Assembly: GCF_000425865.1 (NCBI RefSeq) | Contig: NZ_AUEG01000007.1 | Location: 1 to 54,172 of the forward strand | Source of the DNA: Lacticigenium naphthae DSM 19658 | GTDB lineage: Bacteria > Bacillota > Bacilli > Lactobacillales > Carnobacteriaceae_A | DNA: 54,172 bases | Direction: 5' to 3' | Notes under the pieces: generated by a model | Database searches by the model: none | Seen by the model: only the letters and a program-made list of their open reading frames with translations | Told to the model about the DNA's origin: nothing | Made by a program: the position numbers and the translations under genes | In this document: positions 18,002-40,619 of the stretch, in pieces | Layout: each line of letters begins with the position of its first letter | Position numbering within the stretch: position 1 is the stretch's first letter

Positions 18002-18973
18002 TTATTCATTTACTTCTAATTCTTCTTGTAGAATGTCAGAAACTCTAGCAACTTCTTCTTCTGGAATAATTTCATAATAAATCCCATCTATATACTCGCC
18101 GTATCCTTCTAACTGAAGTTGGTCAACAGTGTCGGCAGCAGAGCGATATTTATTGAACAAATCCAACAAATCATCAAAACTTAAATTTGTCGTCATATTT
18201 TTTTCTAGCGACTCCAACACACCTTGGTAACGTACGACAGAGGATAGAGAAGCTACTTTTTTCAGAGAAGCTTCGATTAACTGACGCTGACGTTCTTGAC
18301 GGCCATAGTCGCCAGAAGGGTCACTTTTTCGATTTCTAGAATACGCTAAAGCTGCATCTCCATCTACCTTCGTTGTTACGCCTTCAGTAAATGTATAATC
18401 GTCTTGGGTAAATGAGATCGGCGGGGTCACTTCTACTCCACCCAGAGAATCAATAATATCTTTTAATCCTTGCATATTAACACTGACGTAATAATCGATT
18501 GGAACATCAAATAAATTTTGCACTGTATTAATAGACATACTTGCCCCACCGAAAGCATAAGCATGATTAATTTTGTCCATTGTCCCACGTCCAATGATCT
18601 CTGTGTAGGTATCACGCGGAATACTCAATAATTTGGTTTCATTTTTTTTCGGATTGACGGTCATTAACATAATTGTATCTGAACGTCCTTGGTCCGTACG
18701 GCCAGCAAATCCGGTATCGATCCCCATTAAAAGTACAGAAAAGGGGTCTTCTCCTCCATCTACATCAACTGGTTTTGTTCGTCGTTCTTCTTTATCTGTT
18801 ACTTCTGAATAGATATTGTCGGATGTACTGACCACGTCACTGTATACTTTCCATACTAATATACCAATTGTAGCGACCGCGATTAAGGCTAACACTCCTA
18901 AAATCCGTAAAAATCGATTCCTTTTCTTATTCTTTTTATGCAGTTGTTTTTTTTCTAATCGTGTTTGAGGCAT
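18002..18973 (-). CDS. LytR-CpsA-Psr (LCP) family polysaccharide-to-wall ligase
   Basis: This 323-residue protein has a basic cytoplasmic N-terminus, one membrane helix (about 23-45) and an extracellular LCP domain. LCP enzymes transfer undecaprenyl-diphosphate-linked polymers such as capsule, wall teichoic acid or rhamnan onto peptidoglycan MurNAc. Family motifs are present: LLMGIDTG, the Arg/Asp-rich GRSDTIMLMTVNP, KLLSIPRDTYTEI, MDKINHAYAFGG and LAYSRNRKSDPSGDYGRQERQRQ. The Arg residues that bind the lipid diphosphate are kept. It stands alone between two terminators and next to cps genes, so it probably anchors the cluster I or cluster II polymer. Confidence 0.9.
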   Translation of the reverse strand: MPQTRLEKKQLHKKNKKRNRFLRILGVLALIAVATIGILVWKVYSDVVSTSDNIYSEVTDKEERRTKPVDVDGGEDPFSVLLMGIDTGFAGRTDQGRSDTIMLMTVNPKKNETKLLSIPRDTYTEIIGRGTMDKINHAYAFGGASMSINTVQNLFDVPIDYYVSVNMQGLKDIIDSLGGVEVTPPISFTQDDYTFTEGVTTKVDGDAALAYSRNRKSDPSGDYGRQERQRQLIEASLKKVASLSSVVRYQGVLESLEKNMTTNLSFDDLLDLFNKYRSAADTVDQLQLEGYGEYIDGIYYEIIPEEEVARVSDILQEELEVNE

Positions 18974-24328: not shown

Positions 24329-26665
24329 CTATTTCACGAAAGGTTTCACTGCTATCCCGGGTGCATCACCATTTTTTTCTACCAAAATGATTTCTATTGC
24401 TTCCAATCTTTTAGCCTTTCCTTCAGTTCCCGCTGGTTCTCCATTTTTAGCCCAGTCAAGCCACCCATATGTTTCTGAATGAACCCTGTAGTAAACATCA
24501 TAATCATTTGCCACTTCTTGAACTAATCTGATTTGTATAGCTTCAAGTCTTTTTCTTTCACCCGTTGTTCCAGACAATGAGCCATTCCTGACCCAATTTT
24601 GCCAACCTATTTTTTCAACGTGTGCTTTATATTCTATAGCTCCTGAATAGGCCAGATTATCTAATTTTATTTGAATGGATTCTAATCGTCTAGACAATCC
24701 TGTGGACCCTGCAGTGTCCCCTTCGTTAAACCATCCTTGCCATCCACTAGTTTCAATGTGTGTTTGATAAGATAATATTGGCCTCGTATTTTTCCTAAAT
24801 ATTTCTTTATTTCCCCCTGAGACCCCGTAATCTTTTGGAACTAATTTAGATTGCATTCCAACTATATAATCCTGATTGTTTATATTTCCAGCAATAGTTC
24901 CATTTTTGTTCCAACCTTGCCATCCTTTATTATTGATATTCACTCTATAATAGACATCGAAATGATAAGCCATTTCACCTTCTAGCACAATTTTCATAGC
25001 ATCGATTGCTCTAGTAGAATTCATTATTCCGCTATCTTGTCCATTATTTTGCCAGCTTAACCAAGCATCAGAATTGCTTCCTTTAAGATGGGAAATAAAC
25101 CGAACATTCCCTGTTTCAACTGTGTTTTCTAAATTTACTTTTAATGCTTCAAAATTAAACGCTGAAGTTCCGCCTCCAAGTGTTTTTCCATCAATTGAAT
25201 CGCTGCTCCATTTTTCATCTATTTTGGAATTGTACATGGCATAAGAAATTTTTGGAACTAATTTAGCTTCAATCGCTTCAATTCTATAATCGAATAATTC
25301 GGTTCCGGTTATTTCACCATTTTTGGCCCAATCCATCCAACCAATTTTTTCAACATGTATTCTATAATAGATATCATAATAGTCCGATTTACTCCCGGTC
25401 AGTTTCATTTTAACAGATTCGATTCTCTGATTTTTCCCTTTGGTTCCTATCCATGTGCCGTTGCCCATCCAGTCAGTCCATCCTTGTGATTCGACAAACC
25501 CTGCATACTGGATTCCCAACTCAGGAATTCCTTTGATATTGAATTGAATTGCTTCGATTCTCCTTGATTCTCCTACAGTCCCGCTTAGTTGCCCGTCTTG
25601 AACATTTTTTTGATCCCCCACTCTTTGAACATGGCTCTGATAATTCAAAGTTGGTGTTGGGTCATATTGATATAATTTATATCTTGAAATTATTGCATTC
25701 AGTTTATGAGGATAATTCGGATCTGTTGCATATCCCGCATCTTTTAAAGCTTGCGTAGCATGACGATATGTTGGTGAAGCACTCATATTGACATTTTTAT
25801 ATCTTGTTTTTTGTAAAAAATTTGCCTGATCCAGAAAAGCTTCGTCATACGATGGATATACTCTAAATTCATCCATAATTGTAATATAATATCCGCCTTC
25901 TGGATGCGTTTTATCAACAATCCATTCTTGAGTGGGAACTGTAATATAATCCCCTGAAAAATCTCCACTAGCTTTTATCCCGAACATTTGGTGATAAGGC
26001 GGTTGGGATAATGAACTGTTTCCCCAGCCTGACTCTAGAATAGCTTGGGCAAGCATAACCGAAGGATATAAATTATATTGTGTAGCATATTTTTTTGCTA
26101 AAGGAGCAAATTGATCAAGGAAAGACTGTGTTGGGGAGATACTCGCCATTCTAAACATCATCACAGATTGTTGCCCGTCTTCTTCCATGATATCCATTGC
26201 CTTTTTCCTATTTTCTTCTACCGAATAAACCTCTGGGTAAATAGGGTTCGATTGAGCAGTATTCTCTATCTCAGCTAAATCACTCGTATTAATTTGTGAT
26301 TCAGTTGAGTTATCCTCGGAGATTGTATCTTGGGGCTTCTCTTCTACTACAGCATCTATTGACTTCGATACGTCGTCTGAATTTGTTTCTTCGATTACTT
26401 CATATGTACTGTCTTTTTCAATAACAGCGTCTTGACTGGTATTTGAAAGATCATCAGAAATAATGGCACCATCTTGGATTGTTTCTTCTTCACTATTTAC
26501 AGATTCTTCTGCATCTATTACTGTTTTTTCTTCAACTGGTTCTTTAAATTCCTCTTCAGTATTTTGATATTCCTGAGATTCAACTGCCATAACAGCACTT
26601 GGAATAAAATTAGTCGCCACAAATGTTAGTACGACTAATTTTTTGAATAATTTATTTCTCATCAT
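24329..26665 (-). CDS. Secreted GH73-type N-acetylglucosaminidase with nine ChW repeats
   Basis: The protein has 778 residues. A signal peptide (about 1-27, ending AVMA) and an acidic Ser/Thr-rich linker (about 30-150) come first. The glucosaminidase domain (about 178-335) carries MLAQAILESGWGNS with the catalytic Glu at 211, then HQMFGIKASGDF and a typical YPSYDEAFLDQANFL. Residues about 338-766 are nine ChW repeats of about 45 residues (core G-W-x-x-W-x-x-N-G, A-G-T, R-x-E-A-I-x-I-x-L). They occur as three triplets. The type order is Y-Q-S-H-V, then a Y-x-A-H-V-E type, then Y-D-V-Y-Y-R-V-H; the middle triplet is degenerate. The enzyme should cut glycan strands while bound to the wall. It starts 38 bases after rmlD with no terminator between, so it is probably co-transcribed with the rhamnose genes. 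Confidence 0.88.
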   Translation of the reverse strand: MMRNKLFKKLVVLTFVATNFIPSAVMAVESQEYQNTEEEFKEPVEEKTVIDAEESVNSEEETIQDGAIISDDLSNTSQDAVIEKDSTYEVIEETNSDDVSKSIDAVVEEKPQDTISEDNSTESQINTSDLAEIENTAQSNPIYPEVYSVEENRKKAMDIMEEDGQQSVMMFRMASISPTQSFLDQFAPLAKKYATQYNLYPSVMLAQAILESGWGNSSLSQPPYHQMFGIKASGDFSGDYITVPTQEWIVDKTHPEGGYYITIMDEFRVYPSYDEAFLDQANFLQKTRYKNVNMSASPTYRHATQALKDAGYATDPNYPHKLNAIISRYKLYQYDPTPTLNYQSHVQRVGDQKNVQDGQLSGTVGESRRIEAIQFNIKGIPELGIQYAGFVESQGWTDWMGNGTWIGTKGKNQRIESVKMKLTGSKSDYYDIYYRIHVEKIGWMDWAKNGEITGTELFDYRIEAIEAKLVPKISYAMYNSKIDEKWSSDSIDGKTLGGGTSAFNFEALKVNLENTVETGNVRFISHLKGSNSDAWLSWQNNGQDSGIMNSTRAIDAMKIVLEGEMAYHFDVYYRVNINNKGWQGWNKNGTIAGNINNQDYIVGMQSKLVPKDYGVSGGNKEIFRKNTRPILSYQTHIETSGWQGWFNEGDTAGSTGLSRRLESIQIKLDNLAYSGAIEYKAHVEKIGWQNWVRNGSLSGTTGERKRLEAIQIRLVQEVANDYDVYYRVHSETYGWLDWAKNGEPAGTEGKAKRLEAIEIILVEKNGDAPGIAVKPFVK

Positions 26666-26703
26666 TACTTAAAAACTCCATTCTCATAATTATTCTTCGA
26701 TTT

Positions 26704-27552
26704 TTACGATTTGTTTTCTATTATCGTTTTAAAAGACGCCAAAGCTTGTTGCCAGGTAGGGATTTCAAAGCCTGTTTTTTTAGTTTTCTCTAAACTTAAT
26801 ATGGAATGTTGTGGCCTTTGTGCTTTTTGTGGATATTCTTCACTCGTTACTGGATCGATTGTAATCTCTTTGTCTTTTAAAATTTCTTTGGAAAATTCAT
26901 ACCAACTACATTCGCCATCGTTTGAAAGATGATAAATACCATATGGTACTTCTTTTTCAATCAGATAGATCATGAATTCAGCTAAAGTTCTTGTCCAAGT
27001 AGGTCTCCCATACTGATTGTTTATAACTGCTAGTTCTGACTTTGTTTCGGACAATTTCAACATGGTATATACAAAGTTTTTTCCGTATTGACCAAATACC
27101 CAAGACGTACGAACGATATAATACATTGAAAGGTGTTTTTGCACCATTTCTTCTCCTTTTAATTTCGCTTTTCCATACTCGTTGATTGGATCAGGAGTGT
27201 CTGAAGTTAAATATTCATTTTCGTTTTTCCCATTAAAAACATAATCAGTACTTATATAAACCATTTTGGCTTGCCTTTTTTTACAGGCCTTTGCTATATT
27301 TTCAGTTCCCAAAACGTTAACTTTATAATTCAGCTCTTTCCCGTCATCTTCTGCGTTATCGACAGCTGTATAAGCGGCACAATGAAAAACAATAGTCGGC
27401 TGAACTTCGTTAAATACTGCGCTGACTTTTGAAGAATCTGTAATATCCATTTCATCAGAGTCACAGCCAAAGTATTCTAATTCCATTTCATCTAACAATT
27501 GTTGCAATTCTTGTCCAAGTTGACCATTTGCACCCGTAATCATGATTTTCAT
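26704..27552 (-). CDS. rmlD: dTDP-4-dehydrorhamnose reductase
   Basis: This 282-residue SDR-type enzyme carries out the last step of dTDP-L-rhamnose synthesis, reduction of the 4-keto group with NAD(P)H. Visible motifs are GANGQLGQEL at the N-terminus, YISTDYVFNG, and the catalytic Tyr and Lys in NEYGKAKLKGEEMV, followed by VRTSWVFGQYGKNFV. The ATG at 27550-27552 has AAGGAG 9 bases upstream. A TTG three codons earlier is less likely. It is the fourth gene in the order A-C-B-D common in Gram-positive bacteria. A 12-bp inverted repeat separates it from rmlB. Confidence 0.93.
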   Translation of the reverse strand: MKIMITGANGQLGQELQQLLDEMELEYFGCDSDEMDITDSSKVSAVFNEVQPTIVFHCAAYTAVDNAEDDGKELNYKVNVLGTENIAKACKKRQAKMVYISTDYVFNGKNENEYLTSDTPDPINEYGKAKLKGEEMVQKHLSMYYIVRTSWVFGQYGKNFVYTMLKLSETKSELAVINNQYGRPTWTRTLAEFMIYLIEKEVPYGIYHLSNDGECSWYEFSKEILKDKEITIDPVTSEEYPQKAQRPQHSILSLEKTKKTGFEIPTWQQALASFKTIIENKS

Positions 27553-27582
27553 TTTACACAACTCCTTTTTTAAAAATAGAAT

Positions 27583-27614
27583 AATGAGAAAAGATGGCAG
27601 TGTCTTTTCTCATT
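27583..27614 (-). promoter_or_regulatory. 12-bp perfect hairpin between rmlB and rmlD
   Basis: AATGAGAAAAGA (27583-27594) and TCTTTTCTCATT (27603-27614) form a perfect stem with an 8-base loop between the rmlB stop and the rmlD start. On the minus strand ATTCTATTTTT follows. It may be a partial terminator or attenuator that lowers expression of rmlD and the glucosaminidase, or an mRNA processing site. Confidence 0.5.
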
Positions 27615-27619
27615 GTTCC

Positions 27620-28600
27620 TCACAACTTTGCTTTTTCTTTCAACGGTTTCCACCATTCTACATTTTCTTTATACCATTCTATTGTGTCATTGATCCCTGT
27701 GTCAAATGTATATACTGGCTTCCATCCTAACTCATTTTCAAGTTTCGTAGGATCAATTGCATAACGTTTATCATGGCCTAGTCTATCTTCTACATACGCA
27801 ATTAAATCTTTTGAAACATTCAGTTTATTTACTATCGTATGAACAATTTCATTATTCGTTCTCTCATTATGTCCACCTACGTTATACACTTCTCCCTTTC
27901 GACCATTTTTAAGGACCAGGTCGATTGCTTGACAATGATCTTCCACGTGGAGCCAATCGCGTATATTTTTTCCATCTCCATAAATAGGTAAGTTTTTCCC
28001 CTCCATTGCATTAGTGATCATGAGTGGGATTAATTTTTCAGGAAAGTGGTAGGGACCATAGTTATTAGAACATCTAGTTATGTTGACATTCATTCCATAT
28101 GTTTCGTAGTAGGAACGCACCAGCAAGTCTGCACTTGCTTTGCTGGCCGAATAAGGGCTATTGGGGGCTAACGGAGTCTCCTCTGTGAAATAGCCTTCTT
28201 CACCTAATGAACCATATACTTCGTCTGTCGAAACTTGTAAATATTTATGAACGCCGTATTCTTTCGCCACATTCAGTAAAGCTAACGTTCCTTTTACATT
28301 TGTTTCAACAAAAATTTCAGGATTCGTTATACTTCTGTCTACATGTGATTCAGCTGCAAAATTGACAACATGAGTGATGGTATATTCTTTGATTAAATAA
28401 CTGACTAATTCAGTATTTGTAATATTTCCCTGAACAAAAATATGTTGGGAATTATTCTGTAAATCATCTAGATTATGAATATTTCCAGCATACGTCAATA
28501 AATCTAAATTTATGATTTTATCATCCGGATGATTTCTCAGCATATAATGAACAAAATTACTCCCTATAAAACCGGCACCACCTGTAACTAAAATATTCAT
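27620..28600 (-). CDS. rmlB: dTDP-glucose 4,6-dehydratase
   Basis: This 326-residue enzyme converts dTDP-glucose to dTDP-4-keto-6-deoxyglucose with a bound NAD. The NAD motif GGAGFIGSNFVHYM begins at residue 7. STDEVYGSLGE holds the catalytic Thr-Asp-Glu set, and YSASKASADLLV holds the Y-x-x-x-K pair. NNYGPYHFPEKLIPL and GDGKNIRDWLHVEDHC complete the family pattern. The ATG at 28598-28600 overlaps the rmlC stop as ATGA, so the two are translationally coupled. An ATG six codons upstream is less likely. Confidence 0.95.
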   Translation of the reverse strand: MNILVTGGAGFIGSNFVHYMLRNHPDDKIINLDLLTYAGNIHNLDDLQNNSQHIFVQGNITNTELVSYLIKEYTITHVVNFAAESHVDRSITNPEIFVETNVKGTLALLNVAKEYGVHKYLQVSTDEVYGSLGEEGYFTEETPLAPNSPYSASKASADLLVRSYYETYGMNVNITRCSNNYGPYHFPEKLIPLMITNAMEGKNLPIYGDGKNIRDWLHVEDHCQAIDLVLKNGRKGEVYNVGGHNERTNNEIVHTIVNKLNVSKDLIAYVEDRLGHDKRYAIDPTKLENELGWKPVYTFDTGINDTIEWYKENVEWWKPLKEKAKL

Positions 28601-29169
28601 TTTTCTTCTTCCTTCCATACAAATGGATTATTGATTTCACTCAATTTTGGATGGTGTTTATCCTTTTCGGACAATATGACACTATTTAAATTCATTGGCC
28701 ATATGATCCCTATATCCGCATCATCAAAGGCAATCCCAGCATCATGCTCTTTGGAATACAGTTCGTCTACTTTATATTGAACGTTACAATTTTCTGTTAA
28801 AGTAATAAAACCATGTGCGAATCCTTTTGGAACGAGCAATTGTCTATGATTATGTTCACTTAATATAAAGCCTTCCCATTTTTCAAACGAAGGAGAGCCT
28901 TTTCTTAAATCAACAATGACATCATAAATAGCTCCAGTTGTACACCGAATCATTTTTGTTTGTGCCTTTGGAGGCATTTGAAAATGCATCCCTCTTAACA
29001 CTCCGGGCTCTTTTGATAAAGAATGATTATCTTGTATAAAATTATTGTTTATACCCATTTTTTCGAATTTGTTTTGTGTGTAACTTTCTGTAAAAAAACC
29101 TCTATGGTCTCCATAAACATCCGTTTCGATTAAGACAACATCTTGAAGGGAAGTATCTATCAGTTTCAT
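28597..29169 (-). CDS. rmlC: dTDP-4-dehydrorhamnose 3,5-epimerase
   Basis: This 190-residue cupin-fold enzyme epimerises C3 and C5 of dTDP-4-keto-6-deoxyglucose. Family motifs are DHRGFFTESY, LRGMHFQMPPKAQTKMIRC with the catalytic His, DLRKGSPSFEKW and VPKGFAHGFITL. The ATG at 29167-29169 lies 8 bases after GAGGAG. A GTG three codons earlier would sit within the spacer. The gene follows rmlA by 16 bases and overlaps rmlB by four. Confidence 0.94.
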   Translation of the reverse strand: MKLIDTSLQDVVLIETDVYGDHRGFFTESYTQNKFEKMGINNNFIQDNHSLSKEPGVLRGMHFQMPPKAQTKMIRCTTGAIYDVIVDLRKGSPSFEKWEGFILSEHNHRQLLVPKGFAHGFITLTENCNVQYKVDELYSKEHDAGIAFDDADIGIIWPMNLNSVILSEKDKHHPKLSEINNPFVWKEEEK

Positions 29170-29185
29170 ATAACACACTCCTCGT

Positions 29186-30055
29186 TTATTTTTCGTTTGA
29201 GATTCTTAACAAATACTTCCCATACCCACTTTTCTTTAGCGGTTGAGCTAATTCGTTTAACTTTTCTTTTGATATATATCCCATACGATATGCAATTTCT
29301 TCTAAACAAGCCACTTTGAAATTTTGTCTTTTTTCTATTGTTTCTATAAACATACCAGCTTCTAGTAATGATTCATGAGTTCCTGTATCCAGCCAGGCAA
29401 ATCCACGACCCATTAATTGAACATCTAACCTGTCTCTACGCAAGTATTCCTGATTGACATCTGTTATTTCAAGTTCCCCTCTTTTTGAAGGTTTAATATT
29501 TTTTGCGATTTCAACAACCTCATTATCATAAAAATATAATCCTGTTACAGCGTAATTACTCTTCGGTATTTCAGGTTTCTCTTCGATAGATACTGCTTTC
29601 ATAGTCTTATCAAATTCAACGACACCAAATCTTTCTGGATCATTTACATGATAGCCAAAGACGGTTGCTCCTTTTGGTTTTTCGGCTGCGGATTGAAGCA
29701 TTTTTGATAATCCACTACCATAATAGATGTTATCACCCAATATTAGACAAACTGAATCGTTACCTATGAATTCTTCTCCAATAATAAACGCTTCAGCTAA
29801 CCCATTGGGTTTCTCCTGAACGGCGTAAGAAAATTTCACCCCGATTTCATCCCCAGTACCCAAAAGTGTTTCAAATCTTGGTGTATCCTCCGGAGTTGAG
29901 ATAATCAATATTTCTTTTATACCAGCCAACATCAAAGTCGAAATAGGATAATAAATCATCGGTTTATCATATATCGGCATCAACTGTTTAGATACAGCTT
30001 TCGTAAGAGGATATAATCTAGTTCCACTACCACCAGCTAATACAATACCTTTCAT
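29186..30055 (-). CDS. rmlA: Glucose-1-phosphate thymidylyltransferase
   Basis: This 289-residue nucleotidyltransferase makes dTDP-glucose from dTTP and glucose 1-phosphate, the first step of dTDP-rhamnose synthesis. The N-terminus has the signature [20 protein letters not shown] with the dTTP loop and [14 protein letters not shown]. The magnesium-binding [10 protein letters not shown] (about 105-114) and [10 protein letters not shown] with [11 protein letters not shown] are typical of the RmlA group. It is the first gene of the rml operon, with an extended -10 promoter just upstream. Confidence 0.95.
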
Positions 30056-30087
30056 AATTTCACTTTCCTTTCTAAATAACCGTAACC

Positions 30088-30096
30088 ATTATATCA
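30088..30096 (-). promoter_or_regulatory. Extended -10 promoter of the rml operon
   Basis: On the minus strand TGATATAAT gives a TG-n-TATAAT extended -10, about 33 bases before the rmlA ATG. No good -35 is seen at 17 bases, which an extended -10 can replace. Confidence 0.5.
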
Positions 30097-30168
30097 TACT
30101 AAAAACGTAAAGAATTAAACCACCTTATTGAAAGTATATCTATCATTACATCACATAGTCAATTATTT

Positions 30169-30201
30169 AAAAAAAGGTTGAGAGTGAACTCAACCTTTTT
30201 T
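30169..30201. terminator. Bidirectional terminator between the amidase gene and rmlA
   Basis: AAAAAAGGTTGAG and CTCAACCTTTTTT arms with a 6-base loop begin 2 bases after the amidase stop. On the minus strand it ends the amidase transcript, so the rml operon has its own start. Confidence 0.8.
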
Positions 30202-30202
30202 G

Positions 30203-32704
30203 TCAGTATAAGTATTCTAAAATACCATTAACATAACCTCTAGCCAATTTTTCTTGATAACTGTTTTGTACCAATCGTGCACGCTCAGTAGGATTGTCGA
30301 TATAACCAAACTCTATCAAGGCAGAAGGCATCAACGTTTCTCTTAATACATGGAAATTTGCTTGTCTAACTCCACGATCTTCTTCACGAGCTTTTGCTCC
30401 TGAGGATTCCACAACATTCGCATGAATTGCATTCGCCAATTTAGAACTCTCTAGGATTCTATTAAAATCATTTGCTAAAGGGTTGTTAGTAGTTCCAGAT
30501 TGATTGTAATAGTAAGTTTCAATTCCTTTTACTGTACCGTTAAAGGCATTGTGATGGATACTTAAAAATATATCCGGTTTTAATGTATTAGCTTTTAGGG
30601 ATCTCTCTTTTAACGAATATGTCTGATCACCCAATCGAGTCTGTTGAATAGTTATTGGTCGATTATTTATTTTTTTGTCTTTTAACATGCGTACAACTTT
30701 TTGAGTAACGCTAAAATTTAAATTTTTTTCATAGATACCAGCTGAGGTCGCCCCTGAATCGTTCCCTCCATGTCCTGAATCAATGTAAACAATTACTGGT
30801 CTTTCAAATGATTTTTTGTCTAATTCTGGGCCTGTCCCTTTTTTAAATAATTTCACTTCAATTGCTTCTATTCTTTTAGCTAATCCTTCAGAGCCAGACT
30901 TCATTCCGTTTTTTGTCCAACCTAACCAGCCATAACTCTCTATATGAGTTCGGTAATAAACATCATATTTTTGTGACATTTCACCAGTTAATCTGACTTG
31001 AATCCCTTCCAGCCTTCTAGCCAATCCCACAGTCCCGGCCGTACTCCCATTACTATAGTAGTCAGTCCAGCCGACTTTTTCAATATGAGCTGTATATTCT
31101 ATAGAACTATTTGCTGGAAAATTCTCTTGGAAAATTTCAATAGCTTCCATTCTTTTTTCTTGTCCAGTAGTCCCACTCATCATTCCTTCTTCAACTTGCT
31201 CTAACCAGCCAAGCTTTTGAATATGTGTTTTATAGGTTATCGAGGGAGCAACATATTTTTTAAAAGGGTTGTCACCTTTTATTAAAGAATTGTCCTTTTT
31301 ATTCTTAATCGAAACTTCGATTGCTTCTAGTCGATAATCAAATCCTTCTGTTCCAGCTGTTTCTCCATTTTTTGTCCAGTCAAGCCAACCAAATTTTTGT
31401 GCATGGACTCTATAATAAACGTCAAATTCCCCTGAGTCTTCACCACTTAATCTGATTTTAATCGCTTGGATCTTTTTAGACTGTCCGATACTTCCCGCAA
31501 TTTCCCCCTCATTATGCCAATCAGACCATTGATTATTTTCACTCAAAATAGAATATTGAACGTTTACTTTATCCGTGTTCATTATATCTAGTTGAATTGC
31601 TTCAATTCTTTTCGATTCATTGATTGTCCCCGATAATGTCCCATTCTGTACAATATCCATCCATCCATATTTTTGAACATGAGACTGATAAGTAAGCTTA
31701 GGATATTCATTGACAATAAATGGTTCAGTTGTTTGCATCTCTTCGACGACTTCATCTTTATGCGCTAGGTCTATATCAATCGCTTCAATATGCTTATCGT
31801 AATCTTTCACACCTGCTGGTTGTTCATTATTAGCCCAATCAAGCCATCCATAACTCTGAGAATGCACACGATAAAAAAGATTATATTCCTCAGATTCTTC
31901 TCCAATCAACCTCAAACGGACAGCAGATATTTTTAAATTTTCATTAGTGATTTCTGAATGTCCCCATTCACTCCATCCGATTCCATCAGTATAAGTTGAA
32001 ATCTCAATAGCCAGGTTCAAAGAATCATCTATTTCAGTTTTCAATCCTTTAATTTGCTTGGATTTTCCAACGGTCCCCGCAAAGTCACCATGAACACCAT
32101 TATATACCCAACCACCATCATCCGTTTGAACAGCGTAATCCAACACAGAATCTGTGACAGCTATTTTTTCTTCTTGAACAATAGCTAAAGAATTAGTATC
32201 TGCTATTACTTCATTAGTCTTAGAGATACTGTCTCCTTCAGTGTTTTTGTTTTCGCTAACCTCGAATGATTCTTCATCCTCCACTAACAAATTTGCTGAT
32301 TCTTCCTCCTCGACAGTAATTGTCTCTGTCGCTTTGATCCATCCAATTTCTTCATCATTTAAATATATATTAAGCCATTCATCTATTGCACCATCATCTA
32401 CTTTAAAAGTTGCTTTCACTTGAAAAGCTACTTCTTTCCATTCAGTTTGATAAGAAATTTCATTACTTTCTAAATGTGGTTCCGAAAAAACATGTTGTTC
32501 CGGAGAAACAATTTCCACTTTATATGTATAACCTATTTCATTAATATTGTCTTTCCAATTTTCATCATAAAGAACTGAGGTTGTTTCGACCTGTTCATTA
32601 GTTAGAACTTCTTCCTGTGCATATACCTGATCCATATTGATATACGAAATAAAAAATAAACTCAAAAAAACTAATCGAATAAATTGTCTGATTTTCTTCT
32701 CCAT
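30203..32704 (-). CDS. Secreted N-acetylmuramoyl-L-alanine amidase (amidase_3) with nine ChW repeats
   Basis: The protein has 833 residues. A signal peptide (about 1-29) is followed by a region (about 45-120) with an SH3-like look (HVFSEPHLESNEI, ..., WLNIYLNDEEIGWI), then an acidic linker. Nine ChW repeats (about 188-630) again fall into three triplets, the first of which is the most diverged. Residues 638-833 form an amidase_3 domain. Its zinc ligands are His645 (DSGHGG), Glu659 (YEKNLN) and His717 (SIHHNA), with catalytic Glu798 (IEFGYIDN). It cuts the MurNAc to L-Ala bond. In the glucosaminidase the catalytic domain comes first and the repeats last; here the order is reversed. Its gene has its own terminator and lies between the epimerase and rml genes. 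Confidence 0.9.
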   Translation of the reverse strand: MEKKIRQFIRLVFLSLFFISYINMDQVYAQEEVLTNEQVETTSVLYDENWKDNINEIGYTYKVEIVSPEQHVFSEPHLESNEISYQTEWKEVAFQVKATFKVDDGAIDEWLNIYLNDEEIGWIKATETITVEEEESANLLVEDEESFEVSENKNTEGDSISKTNEVIADTNSLAIVQEEKIAVTDSVLDYAVQTDDGGWVYNGVHGDFAGTVGKSKQIKGLKTEIDDSLNLAIEISTYTDGIGWSEWGHSEITNENLKISAVRLRLIGEESEEYNLFYRVHSQSYGWLDWANNEQPAGVKDYDKHIEAIDIDLAHKDEVVEEMQTTEPFIVNEYPKLTYQSHVQKYGWMDIVQNGTLSGTINESKRIEAIQLDIMNTDKVNVQYSILSENNQWSDWHNEGEIAGSIGQSKKIQAIKIRLSGEDSGEFDVYYRVHAQKFGWLDWTKNGETAGTEGFDYRLEAIEVSIKNKKDNSLIKGDNPFKKYVAPSITYKTHIQKLGWLEQVEEGMMSGTTGQEKRMEAIEIFQENFPANSSIEYTAHIEKVGWTDYYSNGSTAGTVGLARRLEGIQVRLTGEMSQKYDVYYRTHIESYGWLGWTKNGMKSGSEGLAKRIEAIEVKLFKKGTGPELDKKSFERPVIVYIDSGHGGNDSGATSAGIYEKNLNFSVTQKVVRMLKDKKINNRPITIQQTRLGDQTYSLKERSLKANTLKPDIFLSIHHNAFNGTVKGIETYYYNQSGTTNNPLANDFNRILESSKLANAIHANVVESSGAKAREEDRGVRQANFHVLRETLMPSALIEFGYIDNPTERARLVQNSYQEKLARGYVNGILEYLY

Positions 32705-32794: not shown

Positions 32795-32839
32795 CAAAAA
32801 AAGTTTCTGAGTTTATTTTTAACTCAGAAAACTTTTTTT
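32795..32839. terminator. Terminator of the UDP-glucuronate epimerase gene
   Basis: AAAAAAAGTTTCTGAGTT and AACTCAGAAAACTTTTTTT pair with one bulge around a 7-base loop. It lies 18 bases after the epimerase stop, with A/T runs on both sides, so it can work in both directions. Confidence 0.75.
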
Positions 32840-32857: not shown

Positions 32858-33874
32858 TCATTTCTTTTTATAATAGTCAACATACCAATCCGTAAATTTC
32901 TGCAAACCTTTCTCCAATGGAGTTTGCGGTTTGAATCCTGTGATTTTATTAAGTTTCTCAATTGATGCATAGGTAGCTGGAACGTCTCCTGGCTTCATTG
33001 GTTCAAATACCTTTTGAAATGTGACTTCCCTATTTAGTGATTTACTTAATGCATTTTCTAGGGTACTTATAAAATCCATTAATTTTACCGGGTTATTATT
33101 TCCAATATTAAAAATCGTACTTGGAACATTCCCGTCTTCACTAGAAGGTGGCAATGATATTAACCGTGAAACTCCTTCAACAATGTCGTCGACATAAGTA
33201 AAGTCTCTATATAAATCATTTTCAAAGTCCCCATTATTATAAATTGCTATGGGTTCATTATTGAAAAACTTATCTGTAAATCCAAAATAAGCCATATCCG
33301 GCCTTCCCATTGGACCATAAACAGTAAAGAAACGTAATCCAGTAGTTGGAATATTGTATAAGTGACTATATGTGTATGCCATCATTTCATTAGTTTTTTT
33401 ACTCGCAGCATATAAAGATACTGGGTAATCCACTCTATCTTCCTCTTTAAAAGGAACATTTTTATTATTTCCATAGACAGAGCTTGAAGATGCGTAAATC
33501 AAATGTTTCACAGGGTATTTTCTGCATGCTTCTAAAATATTAAAGAAGCCTTGCACATTACTCTCCATGTACACATCTGGGTTGACAATAGAATACCTTA
33601 CTCCTGCTTGAGCAGCTAAGTTTATAACAACAGTTGGCTTTTCATTCTTAAAAACATCTAAAATGATTTCCTTTTTTGAAATATCACTTTTAATAAATTT
33701 GAAATTATCATACGTTTGCAAATTATTCAATCGGCTTTCTTTTAAATTTGTATCGTAATAATCATTAAGATTATCTACTCCTATGACTACATTTCCCGAC
33801 TCCAAAAGTCTTTTTGCTAAAAATGACCCTATAAATCCTGCTACTCCTGTGATTAAAATATTTTCATTATTCAT
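32858..33874 (-). CDS. UDP-glucuronate 4-epimerase (CapI/LspL-like)
   Basis: This 338-residue extended SDR enzyme converts UDP-glucuronate to UDP-galacturonate. It has the NAD motif GVAGFIGSFLAKRL, the DNLNDYYDTNLKESRL segment characteristic of the UDP-GlcA epimerase group, the S-S-S-x-V-Y-G motif, Y-A-A-S-K-K as the Y-x-x-x-K pair, and FFTVYGPMGRPDMAYFGFT. The last stretch separates it from GalE. Its substrate is the product of the ugd gene 13 kb away. It follows the LtaS-like gene by about 30 bases with no terminator, so the two are probably one unit. The product would give galacturonic acid in one of the polymers. Confidence 0.85.
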   Translation of the reverse strand: MNNENILITGVAGFIGSFLAKRLLESGNVVIGVDNLNDYYDTNLKESRLNNLQTYDNFKFIKSDISKKEIILDVFKNEKPTVVINLAAQAGVRYSIVNPDVYMESNVQGFFNILEACRKYPVKHLIYASSSSVYGNNKNVPFKEEDRVDYPVSLYAASKKTNEMMAYTYSHLYNIPTTGLRFFTVYGPMGRPDMAYFGFTDKFFNNEPIAIYNNGDFENDLYRDFTYVDDIVEGVSRLISLPPSSEDGNVPSTIFNIGNNNPVKLMDFISTLENALSKSLNREVTFQKVFEPMKPGDVPATYASIEKLNKITGFKPQTPLEKGLQKFTDWYVDYYKKK

Positions 33875-33905
33875 TATGATATCTCCCTCACTTAGTTTAA
33901 TTATT

Positions 33906-35753
33906 TTAGTTATATAATCCTAATTTAGAACTATAATTAGCGCCGGTAGTTATGTCATATAATATTATATCATAATCATTTAACAATTCCTGTGCCGCAA
34001 CAGGTAACTCTTCTCGTCTATTGTAGTATTCAGATTTTTTTTCGCTATAATATGTTCCATTACTGATAACGGGAATATGCTCTTCTAAAGACATTAGCAA
34101 CTGAATGTATGGACTTACTTTAGAGTTATTCAAACTATAAATATGGTTCATAAAATAAATAGGACTAATTGTATCCGGAACTGCTCCAATCTCTGAAAAA
34201 TTTGAATACATATACAAGGGAGTTTTGTGCATTTTTGTTTTCCCATTGCTTCCGTATACGTCATCTCCGTATAAGCTCGGTAAATGATCTCCCCAAAAGA
34301 AAACCACAGTTTTTTCAGGTGAATTTTCAAGCTTTGAAATGAAGTCCTTCAATGCCAAAGAACTGTAGTATAAATCATTCATGTAATGAGCCGTTTCAAT
34401 ATTATCTGGTGTCCCTTCTACTTCAAAAAGCAAGTTGTCGTATTTGCCCAAATAAGGCTGATGATTCTGCATAGTCACTAAATGAATAAATGATGGTTTT
34501 TGATTCCCTTCAATTGTTTTTATTACCTCTTTATATGCAGATTCATCGGAGATAAATTCATTGTTTTCAATTCTTTCTGTGTATTCCATAGTATGATGGT
34601 CAAGAAATTGGTCAAACCCTAGACCTTCATACACTTCTTTTCTCTTATACAAATTGGTATTGTATGGATGAATTGCCAATCGGTCATACTTGTCACCTAC
34701 TAAAGACAAAATAGAGGGATAACTTTCTATTTCTTTTGCTAATTGAATATATGGAGTGGTAATGTTTGCAGACAAAGGTTCCAGAGATATGCCCGTCAAC
34801 GCTTCAAACTCAACATTTGCAGTGCCTCCTCCATATGCAGGGGTATACACCCAACTTATATTTCCAAAATTTTCAAGATTCCTAAAATCGCTGATGGGGT
34901 CTTGGTTTACGGATAAACCATCATAATATAATGGATCGGAAAAAGTTTCGTTCATCACATACACTATATTCATATCATCAAGATTTGTCACTCTGTCTTC
35001 ATTAGTCGCAATACTTTGTTTTTTATACTTATTAATAATTTCTTCCACTTTTTTCTCGGAATATCCTCCTGGTTCTTGCATTGCAGGAGACTTTAAGTTA
35101 AATAAGAACCCAACGATTACGCCATTTTTCGAATAATTAGAATGTTGGTTAAACATGACCCATGAAGTATGATTGGAAAAAAATTCTTTGATAGCATTAC
35201 CAGGTTTATTAAAATTACTCATATAAAATAAGCCATAGGTCAAAATAATAATAGATACTAATCGAAAAATTTTATACTTATGGTCGGCTGACCGTTTGTT
35301 TTTGGACATTAATATATATATAAAAACTCCTGTGATAAAAGTCACTATTAAAATAAGTGCCACTAAATAGATTGGTTCGACCATATCTAACACAAAATTT
35401 ATATCTTTAAGAAAATAAATATCTGAAGGATACAAGGGTTCACTTCTGTATTGGATTTTTTGTTGGTTTGCTACCCCCATCAGAAGAAAAAAAACAGTGT
35501 TGATGATTGTTGCGAGTAGAAGACTTCTTGTAATTGAGAATAGCCACAAACCGATCCAAATCAATATGAATGTCTGTGCTAATATAATAGAAGTGTTCTC
35601 AATCGAAAAAAAATTACTTATTAATTCTTTTTCAAAGTTGAAATGGAGTAATTGCAAAAAAAATGTAATCAAAAAATGCAATGCTATAAATAGAATGATT
35701 TTTAAGCCTGTAATTGGCAGTAGAGAGTTTTGTTTTACAGAAATAAATTGCAC
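33906..35753 (-). CDS. LtaS-like sulfatase-fold phosphoglycerol transferase
   Basis: This 615-residue protein has five N-terminal membrane helices (to about residue 185) and a large extracellular alkaline-phosphatase/sulfatase-fold domain. MNETFSDP holds the first metal-binding Glu. GGGTANVEFEALTG holds the likely catalytic Thr. HLVTMQNHQPY and FFWGDHLPSLYGDD give the remaining metal ligands. Family members take glycerol phosphate from phosphatidylglycerol, either to build lipoteichoic acid or to decorate a polysaccharide, as the streptococcal GacH does. Its place between polysaccharide genes favours decoration, but an LTA role cannot be excluded. Translation starts with GTG, 9 bases after AAAGGA. 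It is transcribed with the UDP-glucuronate epimerase gene. Confidence 0.82.
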   Translation of the reverse strand: MQFISVKQNSLLPITGLKIILFIALHFLITFFLQLLHFNFEKELISNFFSIENTSIILAQTFILIWIGLWLFSITRSLLLATIINTVFFLLMGVANQQKIQYRSEPLYPSDIYFLKDINFVLDMVEPIYLVALILIVTFITGVFIYILMSKNKRSADHKYKIFRLVSIIILTYGLFYMSNFNKPGNAIKEFFSNHTSWVMFNQHSNYSKNGVIVGFLFNLKSPAMQEPGGYSEKKVEEIINKYKKQSIATNEDRVTNLDDMNIVYVMNETFSDPLYYDGLSVNQDPISDFRNLENFGNISWVYTPAYGGGTANVEFEALTGISLEPLSANITTPYIQLAKEIESYPSILSLVGDKYDRLAIHPYNTNLYKRKEVYEGLGFDQFLDHHTMEYTERIENNEFISDESAYKEVIKTIEGNQKPSFIHLVTMQNHQPYLGKYDNLLFEVEGTPDNIETAHYMNDLYYSSLALKDFISKLENSPEKTVVFFWGDHLPSLYGDDVYGSNGKTKMHKTPLYMYSNFSEIGAVPDTISPIYFMNHIYSLNNSKVSPYIQLLMSLEEHIPVISNGTYYSEKKSEYYNRREELPVAAQELLNDYDIILYDITTGANYSSKLGLYN

Positions 35754-35814
35754 AGTCTATTATCCTTTCTGTTTAGAATTTATCAAAAAATATTGAAGAA
35801 TAGATACTTGAAGT

Positions 35815-35846
35815 AAAAAAGCAAATCATTTTGATTTGCTTTTTTA
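35815..35846. terminator. Terminator at the end of cluster II
   Basis: AAAAAAGCAAATCA and TGATTTGCTTTTTT form a strong stem directly after the stop of the second Wzx gene. It closes the nine-gene cluster II transcript. Confidence 0.8.
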
Positions 35847-35848
35847 TT

Positions 35849-37270
35849 TCATTTAGAAACTAATTTCTTCATTTCCTTTATCTGTCCGGTAACGATTAAA
35901 CCAAATAAAAACACTACTGAAAAAACAATCAACTTAATGACTAAGTTAATGAATATACTATATTGAAGTTCGGGAAGAATAAGGAAAATAATTATTTGAA
36001 AAATTCCTAATATTATTGGTTTAGTTAAAGATATAATCAAGTTTTTGAATCCTGTTTCAAATACTTGATACATTAGCAGATAATTATTCACTAAGAAGTT
36101 TGCACTAAATGAGATTACTAACATCACACCTACAGCTTCAACGCTCCCTAAATATACCCCATAAATAATAAACAGTGCATTTAATATCATGGACTGTACT
36201 CCAGAAAATAAAAGGAGATCAGTACGATTTGTAGATTGGTAAAATGCCCCCGAAGTACTCGCAATCATTTGAAGCCAAATTGATACTGCAAGTATTTTAA
36301 AGGTTAATACGCTGTCGACCCATTGATTACCAAATATGAATAAAATGATCTCTTCAGCAGCAAAAAACGAGAACACGGATACCGGTATACCAATATTAGC
36401 TAAAATACGTGTGATTCGTAAATAGACTGTTTCTATTACTTTTGTTTCCTTTTCATATTCAGACATAATTGGTTGAATCACAGGAGTGATTATTCCAGCC
36501 AATAATTGATTAGGATATAGTGAAATTTGATAAGATTTATTATAAAAAGCTAACTGAGTAGGTCCCAAAAACTTCCCAATCAAAATACTATCTAAATTCC
36601 GAGAAAAATAATTAATAAAATTAAAGGCAAATTGATTCCTTGAAAACAACCATATTTTTTTTATGGGTTCCCATGAAAATGATACTCGGGAAGAAATTTT
36701 TGTCTTTTTGTAATAAAACCAATAAGTAATGATTGCTTGAACAATAGCCCCAATAATTATTGAGTAGTATTTGAAGTTTTGTAACGCTAATATGATTGAT
36801 ACAATACCTTTTACAATACCGGAAGCAATAACTACCACATTTACTGTTCTAAAATCTTTATCTTTTAGTAGTATCGATTTTGGAACCACTAAAAGGGCCT
36901 GGAAAAACACAGAAACACCTAAAATAACAAAAATAGGAATGTAAACACTATTTTCAAAAAAAATATTGACTGGGTAACCTAAAAACATGAACATAAAGCC
37001 TAATACTATTGCTACATAAATCGAAAACTTATAAATTACTCTGATGTCTTTTGTTGTTAAGGTTTTGTTTTGAATAATAGCGGGTCCAAATCCCATATCA
37101 GCCAAGAGGGTAAAAAACACCAAAAATATCTGAACTATAGCTACTACACCGTAATCATCAGGCGTTAATATTCTAGATAGCACAGCATTAACTAATAATT
37201 GAATTACAACATTTGAATACTTTCCAACTGCGCTGTATATAATCCCTGATTTAAAATCGCTCATTACCAT
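35849..37270 (-). CDS. wzx: Wzx-type polysaccharide flippase (cluster II, WzxC-like)
   Basis: This 473-residue protein has about 14 membrane helices and belongs to the polysacc_synt_3/WzxC-like branch of the MOP superfamily. The start region fits: SAVGKYSNVVIQLLVNAVLSRILTPDDYG, then GFGPAIIQ, as in colanic-acid type exporters. The central NFINYFSRNLDSILIGKFLGPTQLAFYNKSYQI is also typical. It should carry undecaprenyl-diphosphate-linked repeat units of cluster II across the membrane. It belongs to a different branch from the cluster I flippase, so the two are not a recent duplication. The Shine-Dalgarno is weak, and either ATG at 37270 or at 37264 could be used. It is the last gene of its operon. 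Confidence 0.88.
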   Translation of the reverse strand: MVMSDFKSGIIYSAVGKYSNVVIQLLVNAVLSRILTPDDYGVVAIVQIFLVFFTLLADMGFGPAIIQNKTLTTKDIRVIYKFSIYVAIVLGFMFMFLGYPVNIFFENSVYIPIFVILGVSVFFQALLVVPKSILLKDKDFRTVNVVVIASGIVKGIVSIILALQNFKYYSIIIGAIVQAIITYWFYYKKTKISSRVSFSWEPIKKIWLFSRNQFAFNFINYFSRNLDSILIGKFLGPTQLAFYNKSYQISLYPNQLLAGIITPVIQPIMSEYEKETKVIETVYLRITRILANIGIPVSVFSFFAAEEIILFIFGNQWVDSVLTFKILAVSIWLQMIASTSGAFYQSTNRTDLLLFSGVQSMILNALFIIYGVYLGSVEAVGVMLVISFSANFLVNNYLLMYQVFETGFKNLIISLTKPIILGIFQIIIFLILPELQYSIFINLVIKLIVFSVVFLFGLIVTGQIKEMKKLVSK

Positions 37271-37302
37271 GAGGAGAATTCCCTACTTTCCATTATTACT
37301 TC

Positions 37303-38193
37303 TTACTTATCAATACGATATGCAAAATTTTGCTGATTTATAATTTTTTGTATTTTTTCCTTTGATAAGAAATACAATTTAAGCGCTTCTTTTACACTTT
37401 TTCTTCCATATTTATACTTAATATCTGTCTGATTGTTGAAACTCATCGTTGATGATTGGTCCTCTTTATGATAAATTTCAATATCGTCTAAATAAATCAT
37501 TTTTAAGTTCATTTTTTTGAAAATCAATCCCAATATATTCTCTTCATAATACAAAAATGTTTTTGGATAAAAACCTGTAGCTTTATTTAAATAATTTTCT
37601 GTTAATAAAATAGCTGCTCCATGCAAAATATAACCACTTTTTTGGGTGGTATCTTTTTTACTATCCTTTTCTTTTCTACCTTCAATTCTATTTGACTGTA
37701 CAAATCTTTTTATATTCCTATATGTTTCTATTATTGGAAAAATCAATTCTCTAAAAACACTTTTAAGTGAAGGGTTAAAATATATTGGATTCTGATTATT
37801 TCCGTCACTACCAACGATTCTCGTTCCAATTGCCCCAACAGTCTTATCCATTGGAACTTTTACTAGTTTTTCAAAATAATCGAATTCTTTGAAGATAGTA
37901 TCATTGTTCACCACAAAAACATTGGAAATATTTAATTTATTTATACAGTAATGTATCCCGAGATTATTTCCTTTAGCAAACCCTAAATTTTCATCTGATT
38001 GTAAAAAATGTATAGGAATTCGTTTTTTGTCCGCAATAATCTTTCCTTTTATGTTTTCTATGGACCGATTCTTAGAATTATTATCGACTACTACTATCTC
38101 TAAGTCACCATAAGTCTGATTATAGATAGAATCGATACACTCAACAGTATCTTCCCAATTTAAATAATTTAAAATTACGATTCCTAATTTCAT
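37303..38193 (-). CDS. GT2-family glycosyltransferase (rhamnosyltransferase-like)
   Basis: This 296-residue GT-A enzyme has ILNYLNWEDTVECIDSI, VVDNNSKNRS, ENLGFAKGNNLGI and the metal-binding VVNNDT near residue 92. The N-L-G-F-A-x-G-N-N segment is typical of the WbbL/RfbN rhamnosyltransferase group, and YYEENILGLIF gives the acidic catalytic region. It probably uses dTDP-rhamnose from the rml genes 8 kb downstream. That is inference from the subgroup. It lies between the Wzy and Wzx genes. Confidence 0.78.
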   Translation of the reverse strand: MKLGIVILNYLNWEDTVECIDSIYNQTYGDLEIVVVDNNSKNRSIENIKGKIIADKKRIPIHFLQSDENLGFAKGNNLGIHYCINKLNISNVFVVNNDTIFKEFDYFEKLVKVPMDKTVGAIGTRIVGSDGNNQNPIYFNPSLKSVFRELIFPIIETYRNIKRFVQSNRIEGRKEKDSKKDTTQKSGYILHGAAILLTENYLNKATGFYPKTFLYYEENILGLIFKKMNLKMIYLDDIEIYHKEDQSSTMSFNNQTDIKYKYGRKSVKEALKLYFLSKEKIQKIINQQNFAYRIDK

Positions 38194-38224
38194 AGTTGAT
38201 CCTTTCTATATTAAATAATAGCTA

Positions 38225-39508: not shown

Positions 39509-40619
39509 TATTTCCCCCCTCTTTTAAAACTGTTCTCAAAACTGATACAGTTTTAGAAATGTCGAAATCACTATCTTTCACAATAGTATTCATCTCGATT
39601 CTATCGACTTCTTTATCTAAAAGATATTCTATAACACCGATCCATTCATCAGGACTGGATATATCCTTCCTATAAACAGAATCAGTGACCTTTACTTCAC
39701 TGGGCACTGCATTAGAAACTACACATTGTAAACCTGATGCTTGAGCTTCTATAGTAGCTATAGATAATCCTTCACTTTTCGAGGGTAGCAAAAACAAATC
39801 TGCAATTTCTAAATAATTCTCGATTTTTTCTTTAAATCCCAAAAAAAATATATGGTCTTGTAATCCTAATTCCCTCACTTTTGTTTTCAATACATTTTCT
39901 AAACTGCCTTGCCCAAGTATCAATAGTTGCCTATTTTTATTGTGTTTTATCAGTTCGGGCATGATATCAATTAGAAACTCATGATTTTTAACTTCTTCGA
40001 GTCTCCCCATCGTTAGCAAAATCTCTTTATTCTCTAAGTTTAATTCTTTTTTCATTTGATTACGTTCAACACGGTTGTACAAATACTTAGAGGATTCGAT
40101 GCCGTTATAAATAATATGAACATTTTTTACTGTATCAAATAACCACAAAGCGGCATCGTTAGAACTGGCAAAAAGTATGTCCCCATAATGGCTAATTCTA
40201 GTTTTGTTGATTTTATCTAGCAATTTTAACAAGTAGTATTTCATGCCTTTATTTCTCGATTCAAAAGCAGCTCCATGAGAATGTATGATCAATTTGGCAT
40301 TAGAATATTTTTTCGAAATTTTAAATATTGAAATATTACTTGCAGAGGTAGTGTTCACCCAGATATAATCATATTTTTTTCCTTGTACTATTTTTTTGAC
40401 TTCTTTTCCATGTTTAAGAGGATTTTCTCCCCAAGGTGTAACTTTTATTATATTTGAATTCGTTTCATCTAAAGTTTGTTTATATTGAACGTCGTTTTTA
40501 CTTGATAGAATAAAATCAAAGTTAAAACAGTCATTTTTTGTGTGTTCAAGAAAGTTAAGAAAAAAGGATTCAATTCCTCCGATTTCAGTAGATATCCCAT
40601 AAACTAGTATATTTATCAT
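39498..40619 (-). CDS. GT4-family glycosyltransferase (EpsF-like)
   Basis: This 373-residue GT-B enzyme starts INILVYGISTEIGGIESFFLN, the usual G-G-I-E/G-x acceptor-side loop of family 4. It has HSHGAAFESRNK in the N-terminal domain. The C-terminal domain has LLTMGRLEEVKNHEFLID, FLGFKEKIENYLEIADLFLLPSKSEGLSIATIEAQASGLQ with the EX7E pair, then VVSNAVPSEV. It resembles EpsF/CapM-like enzymes that elongate exopolysaccharide units. It overlaps wzy by 11 bases and follows the beta-propeller gene by 15. Confidence 0.85.
   Translation of the reverse strand: MINILVYGISTEIGGIESFFLNFLEHTKNDCFNFDFILSSKNDVQYKQTLDETNSNIIKVTPWGENPLKHGKEVKKIVQGKKYDYIWVNTTSASNISIFKISKKYSNAKLIIHSHGAAFESRNKGMKYYLLKLLDKINKTRISHYGDILFASSNDAALWLFDTVKNVHIIYNGIESSKYLYNRVERNQMKKELNLENKEILLTMGRLEEVKNHEFLIDIMPELIKHNKNRQLLILGQGSLENVLKTKVRELGLQDHIFFLGFKEKIENYLEIADLFLLPSKSEGLSIATIEAQASGLQCVVSNAVPSEVKVTDSVYRKDISSPDEWIGVIEYLLDKEVDRIEMNTIVKDSDFDISKTVSVLRTVLKEGGNNAK

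Follow-up and report, generated by a model that had tools for sequence, protein, structure and literature searches.

ChW triplets in two wall hydrolases beside the rhamnose genes of Lacticigenium naphthae, and a proposed role in anchoring to a rhamnose-containing wall polysaccharide

The two hydrolases and the rhamnose genes

The window analyzed here, meaning the whole stretch of 54,172 nucleotides at positions 1-54172 of contig NZ_AUEG01000007.1, belongs to the 2.13-Mb genome of Lacticigenium naphthae DSM 19658 and contains the rhamnose genes rmlA-C-B-D, bracketed by two minus-strand genes, one for an Amidase_3 enzyme upstream and one for a GH73 enzyme downstream. Both flanking genes encode wall hydrolases with ChW repeats, and these repeats are the subject of this study: they recur in a fixed order of three types, ChW genes of related genomes lie near rmlC more often than expected by chance, and we propose that the resulting triplets anchor both enzymes to a rhamnose-containing wall polysaccharide. 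ChW proteins (PF07538) were first described in Clostridium acetobutylicum; the repeat family, its use in wall hydrolases and surface proteins, and a suggested organization in triplets are common to those proteins and the two described here. The genes and domains concerned are as follows.

24329..26665, minus strand: GH73 glucosaminidase of 778 residues, its C-terminal part formed by nine ChW repeats (Pfam: 117.1 bits for Glucosaminidase, 288.8 bits for ChW)
25673..26107, minus strand: GH73 catalytic domain, residues 187-331
26704..27561, minus strand: rmlD (TIGR01214, 301.3 bits against a cut-off of 224.05)
27620..28618, minus strand: rmlB (TIGR01181, 497.7 bits against 365.1)
28597..29178, minus strand: rmlC (TIGR01221, 229.4 bits against 155.75)
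29186..30055, minus strand: rmlA (TIGR01207, 502.3 bits against 360.65)
30203..32704, minus strand: N-acetylmuramoyl-L-alanine amidase (Amidase_3) of 833 residues, nine ChW repeats before the catalytic domain (Pfam)
30218..30790, minus strand: Amidase_3 catalytic domain, residues 639-829
32330..32527, minus strand: candidate GW domain (SH3_8-like) in the N-terminal part of the amidase (20.3 bits against a Pfam cut-off of 21)

All four rml genes pass their NCBIfam cut-offs. For the GH73 protein, PF01832 is matched over profile positions 1-123 of 123 (cut-off 30.2 bits); for the amidase, PF01520 is matched over positions 1-173 of 174 with 158.3 bits against a cut-off of 27. The ChW family scores 288.8 and 284 bits in the two proteins against a cut-off of 22, and all 13 ChW matches in the genome at an E-value of 0.001 or less fall in these two genes. 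A preliminary description of this DNA had given coordinates and frames for both genes that proved correct, and its statement that the domain order is reversed between them was borne out by Pfam and by the repeat positions: in the GH73 protein the catalytic domain precedes repeats at residues 338-764, and in the amidase repeats at residues 185-622 precede the catalytic domain. Each protein has a hydrophobic N-terminus that reads by eye like a signal peptide, and both hydrolases are probably secreted.

The ChW triplet as a sequence and folding unit

The repeats of each protein fall into three consecutive sets.

25250..25654, minus strand: GH73 protein, ChW triplet 1 (A-B-C)
24833..25255, minus strand: GH73 protein, ChW triplet 2, the most diverged of this protein, with repeat A degenerate
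24374..24781, minus strand: GH73 protein, ChW triplet 3 (used for the AlphaFold2 model)
31757..32146, minus strand: amidase, ChW triplet 1, with repeat B degenerate
31298..31702, minus strand: amidase, ChW triplet 2
30839..31246, minus strand: amidase, ChW triplet 3

The preliminary count of exactly nine repeats in each protein holds provided that one degenerate repeat per protein is included, since Pfam alone scores eight stretches in each. A hidden Markov model (HMM) built from six window repeats found 17 of the 18, amidase repeat 2 being recovered as a scrap with an E-value of 0.58; GH73 repeat 4 was missed and was assigned from spacing, which keeps it in phase.

The earlier proposal of three sets of three repeat types was upheld when the repeats were clustered. 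The nearest neighbor of a repeat was of the same type in 14 of 18 cases, compared with a mean of 6.0 under shuffled labels, and only 16 of 20,000 shuffles reached 14. Type C is the best conserved, and among the A and B repeats alone nearest neighbors still agreed in 9 of 12 cases. Type-specific HMMs made from other genomes only gave all 18 window repeats the expected type; their training triplets came from an A-B-C-phase search that used a pattern inside repeat C, and Alkalibacterium gilvum stands in both the training and the test sets (L126, L092).

The same organization is found well beyond the window. A profile of the six window triplets matched 43 of 43 ChW genomes in the order to which L. 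naphthae belongs, most of the listed matches being near full length (136 positions). In 40 fetched regions, which were hand-picked and thus are not a random sample (one, L083, holds no ChW open reading frame), the repeat number was 3, 6, 9, or 12 in 46 of 55 ChW open reading frames, and 240 of 273 adjacent repeat pairs followed the order A-B, B-C, or C-A. Among the exceptions are one frame truncated at a contig end (L090), probably some frames with degenerate repeats that escaped detection, and five proteins without any repeat called as type C (L103, L104, L105, L107, and L110).

An AlphaFold2 model of one triplet (136 residues), computed with a 74-row alignment, reached a predicted local distance difference test score (pLDDT) of 96.3 and a predicted template modeling score (pTM) of 0.90, and describes a compact structure that is all beta except for one short helix; a run on one triplet without an alignment gave a pLDDT of 41 and was discarded. 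From the sequence periodicity and this confident model, each A-B-C triplet is predicted to be one folded all-beta domain. When PDB sequences were searched with the triplet profile, one chance match came back, and among solved folds, threefold repeats such as the beta-trefoil included, no convincing match emerged, the best Foldseek match against the PDB having an E-value of 0.18 and the best VIA-align Z score being 3.6. In the viral library, five predicted phage proteins matched at an E-value of 0.001 or less, three of which bear the name of a lytic enzyme (lysin, endolysin, or lysozyme); 2 phage records were matched by a window triplet and 9 by a CHAP-ChW protein, several of the latter matches covering the CHAP part only. 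That the triplet is the functional unit, as the preliminary description held, is thus well supported in the sense of a sequence and folding unit, but the idea is not new, as PMC5817068 credits ChW action in triplets to Sullivan et al. 2007. What goes beyond earlier print is that clustering across many genera defines the A, B, and C types, that the triplet is modeled as a domain, and that a ligand is proposed from gene location.

Position of ChW genes relative to rmlC

The location of ChW genes was analyzed in 295 genomes of the window's order, 43 with ChW and 92 with rmlC above cut-off. An rmlC match was present in 31 of the 43 ChW genomes versus 61 of the 252 others, these genomes being related to one another, and when weaker rmlC matches were included the comparison was 31 of 43 versus 102 of 252. 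ChW genes were counted from the 150 listed matches of 163 triplet matches in all, and expected numbers assume uniform placement, ignoring contig breaks and relatedness. Among the matches listed in the 31 genomes with both, 23 of 63 ChW genes lay within 20 kb of rmlC where 1.0 was expected, and 32 of 63 within 35 kb where 1.7 was expected. Complete listing for 12 genomes without a near ChW gene adds three weak ChW genes, none of them near rmlC, which changes the first proportion to 23 of 66.

Wall hydrolases without ChW did not show this placement. In the same 31 genomes, and after GH73 and NlpC/P60 matches less than 3.5 kb from a listed ChW match had been removed as ChW genes, at least 2 of at least 134 ChW-less GH73 genes among the matches listed lay within 20 kb of rmlC (1.9 expected), as did 0 of 91 ChW-less NlpC/P60 genes (1.4 expected). 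A ChW gene was near rmlC in 15 of the 31 genomes at 20 kb and in 19 at 35 kb; 12 of 16 genera had a genome with ChW within 35 kb, and when one random genome was drawn per genus, a mean of 10.8 of the 16 genera still did. Counted from the rhamnose side, 21 of 34 rmlC genes had ChW within 35 kb.

A link of ChW to polysaccharide loci in general was considered and rejected because such loci rarely have ChW when rmlC is missing. Of the loci marked by the initiating sugar transferase PF02397, 27 had rmlC within 40 kb, and 19 of these had ChW at 35 kb or less; of the 35 for which no rmlC was found within 40 kb, only 2 did.

A similar placement was seen in named genomes of the Bacillota. An alignment-based scan of genome contigs gave 78 named ChW loci, selected for similarity to the window triplets (the same scan with the whole GH73 protein as query gave no match), and ChW was frequent in Bacillaceae and Lachnospiraceae. 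From these, 25 hand-chosen loci led to 24 genomes, 22 with rmlC, of which 21 were searched for ChW; Alkalibacterium gilvum was omitted as a duplicate of G107 in the first set, and three of the 21 (Jeotgalibaca, Trichococcus, and Enterococcus) belong to the order of the first set and may repeat it. Among the best matches, which were those listed, 28 of 82 ChW genes lay within 20 kb of rmlC (1.2 expected) and 34 of 82 within 35 kb (2.0 expected); in this non-random sample, 16 of 21 genomes had ChW within 35 kb of rmlC.

Domain scans took in 20 of the 55 ChW open reading frames, ten near rml and ten away from it. The ten near rml carried GH73, Amidase_3, a C39 peptidase, Big_2, Amidase_2 with GW, or ChW alone, and the ChW triplets were the part they shared. 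The arrangement of rmlD followed by a GH73-ChW gene recurs in three other genomes with gaps of 70, 26, and 209 bases (L076, L077, and L084, respectively), and an Amidase_3-ChW gene followed by rmlA recurs in one genome at a distance of 187 bases (L090). Big_2 Ig-like domains are combined with ChW triplets at or near rhamnose loci of relatives (L072:10709-12898, L076:9181-11526, and L085:12732-15800); leucine-rich repeat matches under cut-off occur in the L072 and L085 proteins, the latter also carrying Amidase_3, and the L072 and L076 proteins, in which no hydrolase domain was seen, may be adhesins. Another protein near rml (L091:5144-8590) joins Amidase_2, GW, ChW triplets, and GH73, a mix which suggests that the two kinds of anchor, GW and ChW, can work in combination.

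Away from rml, a trypsin-like protease bears one diverged ChW triplet (L105:8620-9969), and the other five listed ChW genomes of its genus, g15, hold one-triplet open reading frames of similar size, none of these genomes having an rmlC match. ChW triplets are also borne by a YkuD-type L,D-transpeptidase (L106:8312-10000) and a 5'-nucleotidase-type protein (L099:8914-11034), and the module therefore reaches beyond peptidoglycan hydrolases.

The surrounding genes and the candidate ligands

The gap between the rmlD stop and the GH73 start is exactly 38 bases (26666-26703), as the preliminary description had it, and no terminator-like site is listed there; its suggestion of co-transcription with the rml genes is plausible from the sequence for the GH73 gene only. 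Co-transcription of the amidase with rml was rejected because hairpins stand on either side of its gene, and for the same reason the amidase gene is probably its own transcript. The sites concerned, together with the remaining genes of interest, are listed here.

30169..30200, minus strand: terminator-like hairpin and T run directly after the amidase stop, between amidase and rmlA (read directly)
32796..32838, minus strand: terminator-like hairpin upstream of the amidase gene
32858..45885, minus strand: rest of the polysaccharide cluster, with an epimerase, an LtaS-like protein, a Wzx-like flippase, and GT2/GT4 glycosyltransferases (Pfam)
18002..18973, minus strand: LytR-CpsA-Psr protein (Pfam PF03816)

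Between rmlB and rmlD, within the presumed operon, a hairpin of 12 base pairs with a T-rich tail behind it (27583-27614) could serve as an attenuator or as a processing site. The segment 23989-24249, in the gap that separates the GH73 gene from the following gene, holds a 34-base direct repeat in two copies together with several inverted repeats, 12 to 38 bases long and mostly imperfect; it may be a small mobile element or act as a strong terminator. Nowhere in the window is the gathering score of an Rfam family reached.

Three open reading frames in 32858..45885 have no Pfam match. The LtaS-like protein of this part (33906-35753, PF00884), which lies inside the rhamnose cluster, matches lipoteichoic acid synthase weakly and far under the cut-off; it may attach glycerol phosphate to the polymer, and genes similar to it adjoin ChW genes in L081 and L082. 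A second polysaccharide cluster (9534-20292) directly adjoins the rhamnose cluster and contains Wzz, CpsD-like, and CpsB proteins, an initiating transferase, two UDP-sugar dehydrogenases, and the LytR-CpsA-Psr protein, a candidate wall ligase for a polymer of this region.

Two known systems offer the closest parallels to an anchor of this kind. In Clostridioides difficile, the CWB2 repeats bind PSII, all three copies being needed and none able to stand in for another; PSII is probably the product of the locus adjoining the cwp genes (PMC4973711). The likeness to ChW lies in a unit of three non-equivalent tandem repeats, at either end of the protein, and in genes beside the presumed polymer locus. 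CWB2 nonetheless belongs to another Pfam repeat family, and the window differs in its several tandem ChW triplets and its rhamnose locus, with binding predicted only. The three-repeat modules of SLH likewise jointly hold proteins on a secondary wall polymer, according to PMC4973711. Neither CWB2 (PF04122) nor SLH (PF00395) matched either of the two proteins at E-values up to 10, within HMMER filters that drop most matches above about 0.1.

In Enterococcus faecalis, EpaU is encoded in the locus for the enterococcal polysaccharide antigen (EPA) and binds EPA through its repeat domain, and this binding is lost in an epaR mutant that retains rhamnan only (PMC13343894). EpaU/AtlE shares with the present case an autolysin from a rhamnopolysaccharide locus, with a repeat domain that binds, or here is predicted to bind, the polysaccharide of that locus (PMC13343894, PMC9510096). 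EpaU differs, as reported there, in being a GH25 enzyme with six repeats described as resembling the oligonucleotide/oligosaccharide-binding (OB) fold and in binding teichoic-acid-like decorations, not rhamnan; the term ChW does not occur in the main text of PMC13343894. The GH25 catalytic domain of EpaU/AtlE is absent from the two enzymes of the window, which have GH73 and Amidase_3. A gene beside the polymer locus, as in the CWB2 and EpaU mechanisms, is found in the window and at up to 35 kb in the 19 of 31 genomes counted above. Since EpaU binds decorations and not rhamnan, the epitope here may also be a decoration rather than rhamnose.

Taking periodicity, model, and location together, we think it probable, though with clear reservations, that the ChW triplets anchor both hydrolases to the rhamnose-containing wall polysaccharide of this locus. 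The earlier suggestion that the ligand may be the rhamnose polymer made there has gained locational support against chance, against ChW-less hydrolases, and against loci lacking rmlC, and is kept here as a proposal. The two wall hydrolases would share a targeting module of three tandem ChW triplets, each triplet forming one lectin-like domain, and this module would most likely hold the enzymes on the rhamnose-containing polysaccharide specified by the surrounding genes, perhaps through its decorations. The glucosaminidase and the amidase would then cut peptidoglycan where the polymer is attached, three domains in a row could provide avidity to the two enzymes, and their siting within or next to the rml operon would couple polymer synthesis to the enzymes that read the polymer.

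Several points weigh against this proposal. Among the listed ChW genes, 31 of 63 have no rmlC at 35 kb or less on their contig, nor have the three weak additional ones; no rmlC match at an E-value of 0.001 or less was found in 12 of the order's 43 ChW genomes; and 12 of the 31 genomes with both have no ChW within 35 kb even with the complete listing made for those 12, the ChW genes lying on the same contig at least 185 kb off in six and on different contigs in six. It follows that rhamnose by itself cannot account for every ChW protein, unless those genomes make rhamnose by another route or those proteins act on other cells. Only 7 of the 78 named loci show an rmlC match in the fetched flanks, which were up to 10 kb per side and often less. 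The ten scanned ChW proteins away from rml carried NlpC/P60, CHAP, Amidase_5, trypsin, YkuD, 5'-nucleotidase, or ChW alone, and some of these proteins resemble phage lysins. Genus g12 has rmlC-like genes below the cut-off and no member among the 43 ChW genomes, and rhamnose genes can thus occur where ChW is not needed. Descent of a conserved locus from a common ancestor would also raise the counts, although both the domain architectures and the order of the genes vary. Finally, PMC10610939 labels a domain of a Lactobacillus casei phage lysin as ChW and reports its ligand as peptidoglycan with an amidated cross-bridge, and PMC8051824 suggests from Enterococcus domain usage that ChW may bind peptidoglycan.

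The last point leads to the alternative that ChW triplets bind peptidoglycan itself, for instance an amidated D-Asp cross-bridge, and that proximity to rml reflects only a shared role in the wall. The lysin domain of PMC10610939 bound more after stripping with trichloroacetic acid (TCA), and it resembles a domain shown to bind the amidated cross-bridge (Regulski 2013, cited in PMC10610939). A lactococcal phage anchor labeled ChW by manual alignment, and not recognized as ChW by Pfam, argues the other way, in that it was not detected in the wall fraction released by lysozyme and mutanolysin (PMC6700490). A peptidoglycan ligand would leave the gene location unexplained, since ChW-less hydrolases of the same genomes are not near rmlC. 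Moreover, cross-bridge enzymes do not track ChW: full-length FemAB was found in 10 of 43 ChW genomes (all of genus g25), a partial one in five, and none in 28, and closeness of ChW to rmlC occurs whether or not a genome has FemAB. Bacillaceae and Lachnospiraceae, which often have ChW, have direct meso-diaminopimelate (mDAP) cross-links, and this too counts against a cross-bridge ligand. We consider peptidoglycan as the ligand unlikely.

Alternatively, polysaccharide loci may be hot spots for surface-protein genes, in which case ChW would be there by gene traffic or shared descent without any binding to the polymer. In its favor, variable polysaccharide loci exchange genes, and the order of genes around rml shows a mixture of conservation within families and variation. 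However, ChW is scarce in polysaccharide loci without rmlC, and ChW-less GH73 and NlpC/P60 genes are not enriched at rmlC, these controls covering two hydrolase families. An origin in traffic or descent alone is, in our estimate, quite unlikely. Binding of the triplets to wall teichoic acid or lipoteichoic acid appears very improbable: the LtaS-like gene in the cluster with its counterparts beside ChW in L081 and L082, the suggestion of lipoteichoic acid for one phage anchor (PMC6700490), and the teichoic-acid-like decorations bound by EpaU (PMC13343894) speak for it, but 19 of the 31 genomes with ChW and rmlC have no match to a TagF-type polymerase, and therefore poly(polyol-phosphate) wall teichoic acid, the form to which this count applies, is not general among them.

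To return to the proposed rhamnose-containing ligand, its standing in the literature is quickly told. The ligand of ChW is called unknown in PMC5817068 and its function is called unknown in PMC8051824, and no paper linking ChW to rhamnose or to a wall polysaccharide was found in the literature searched, which takes in few subscription papers. A broader reading, for which we see the case as evenly balanced, is that ChW triplets form, next to SLH and CWB2, a third and widespread three-repeat wall anchor of the Bacillota whose fold has as yet no solved relative, and that they read rhamnose-containing polysaccharides; ChW hydrolases and surface proteins would be sited in rhamnose loci, and phage lysins would borrow the same domain.

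In sum, ChW occurs as a module in many surface proteins of the Bacillota as well as in some phage lysins, and a specific link between ChW and rhamnose loci, seen with controls, reduces the question of its ligand to one clear binding test. If the proposed anchoring is true, it would account for the targeting of a large set of wall enzymes, it would provide a probe for rhamnose-containing wall polymers, and it would allow polymer and binder to be matched through gene position.

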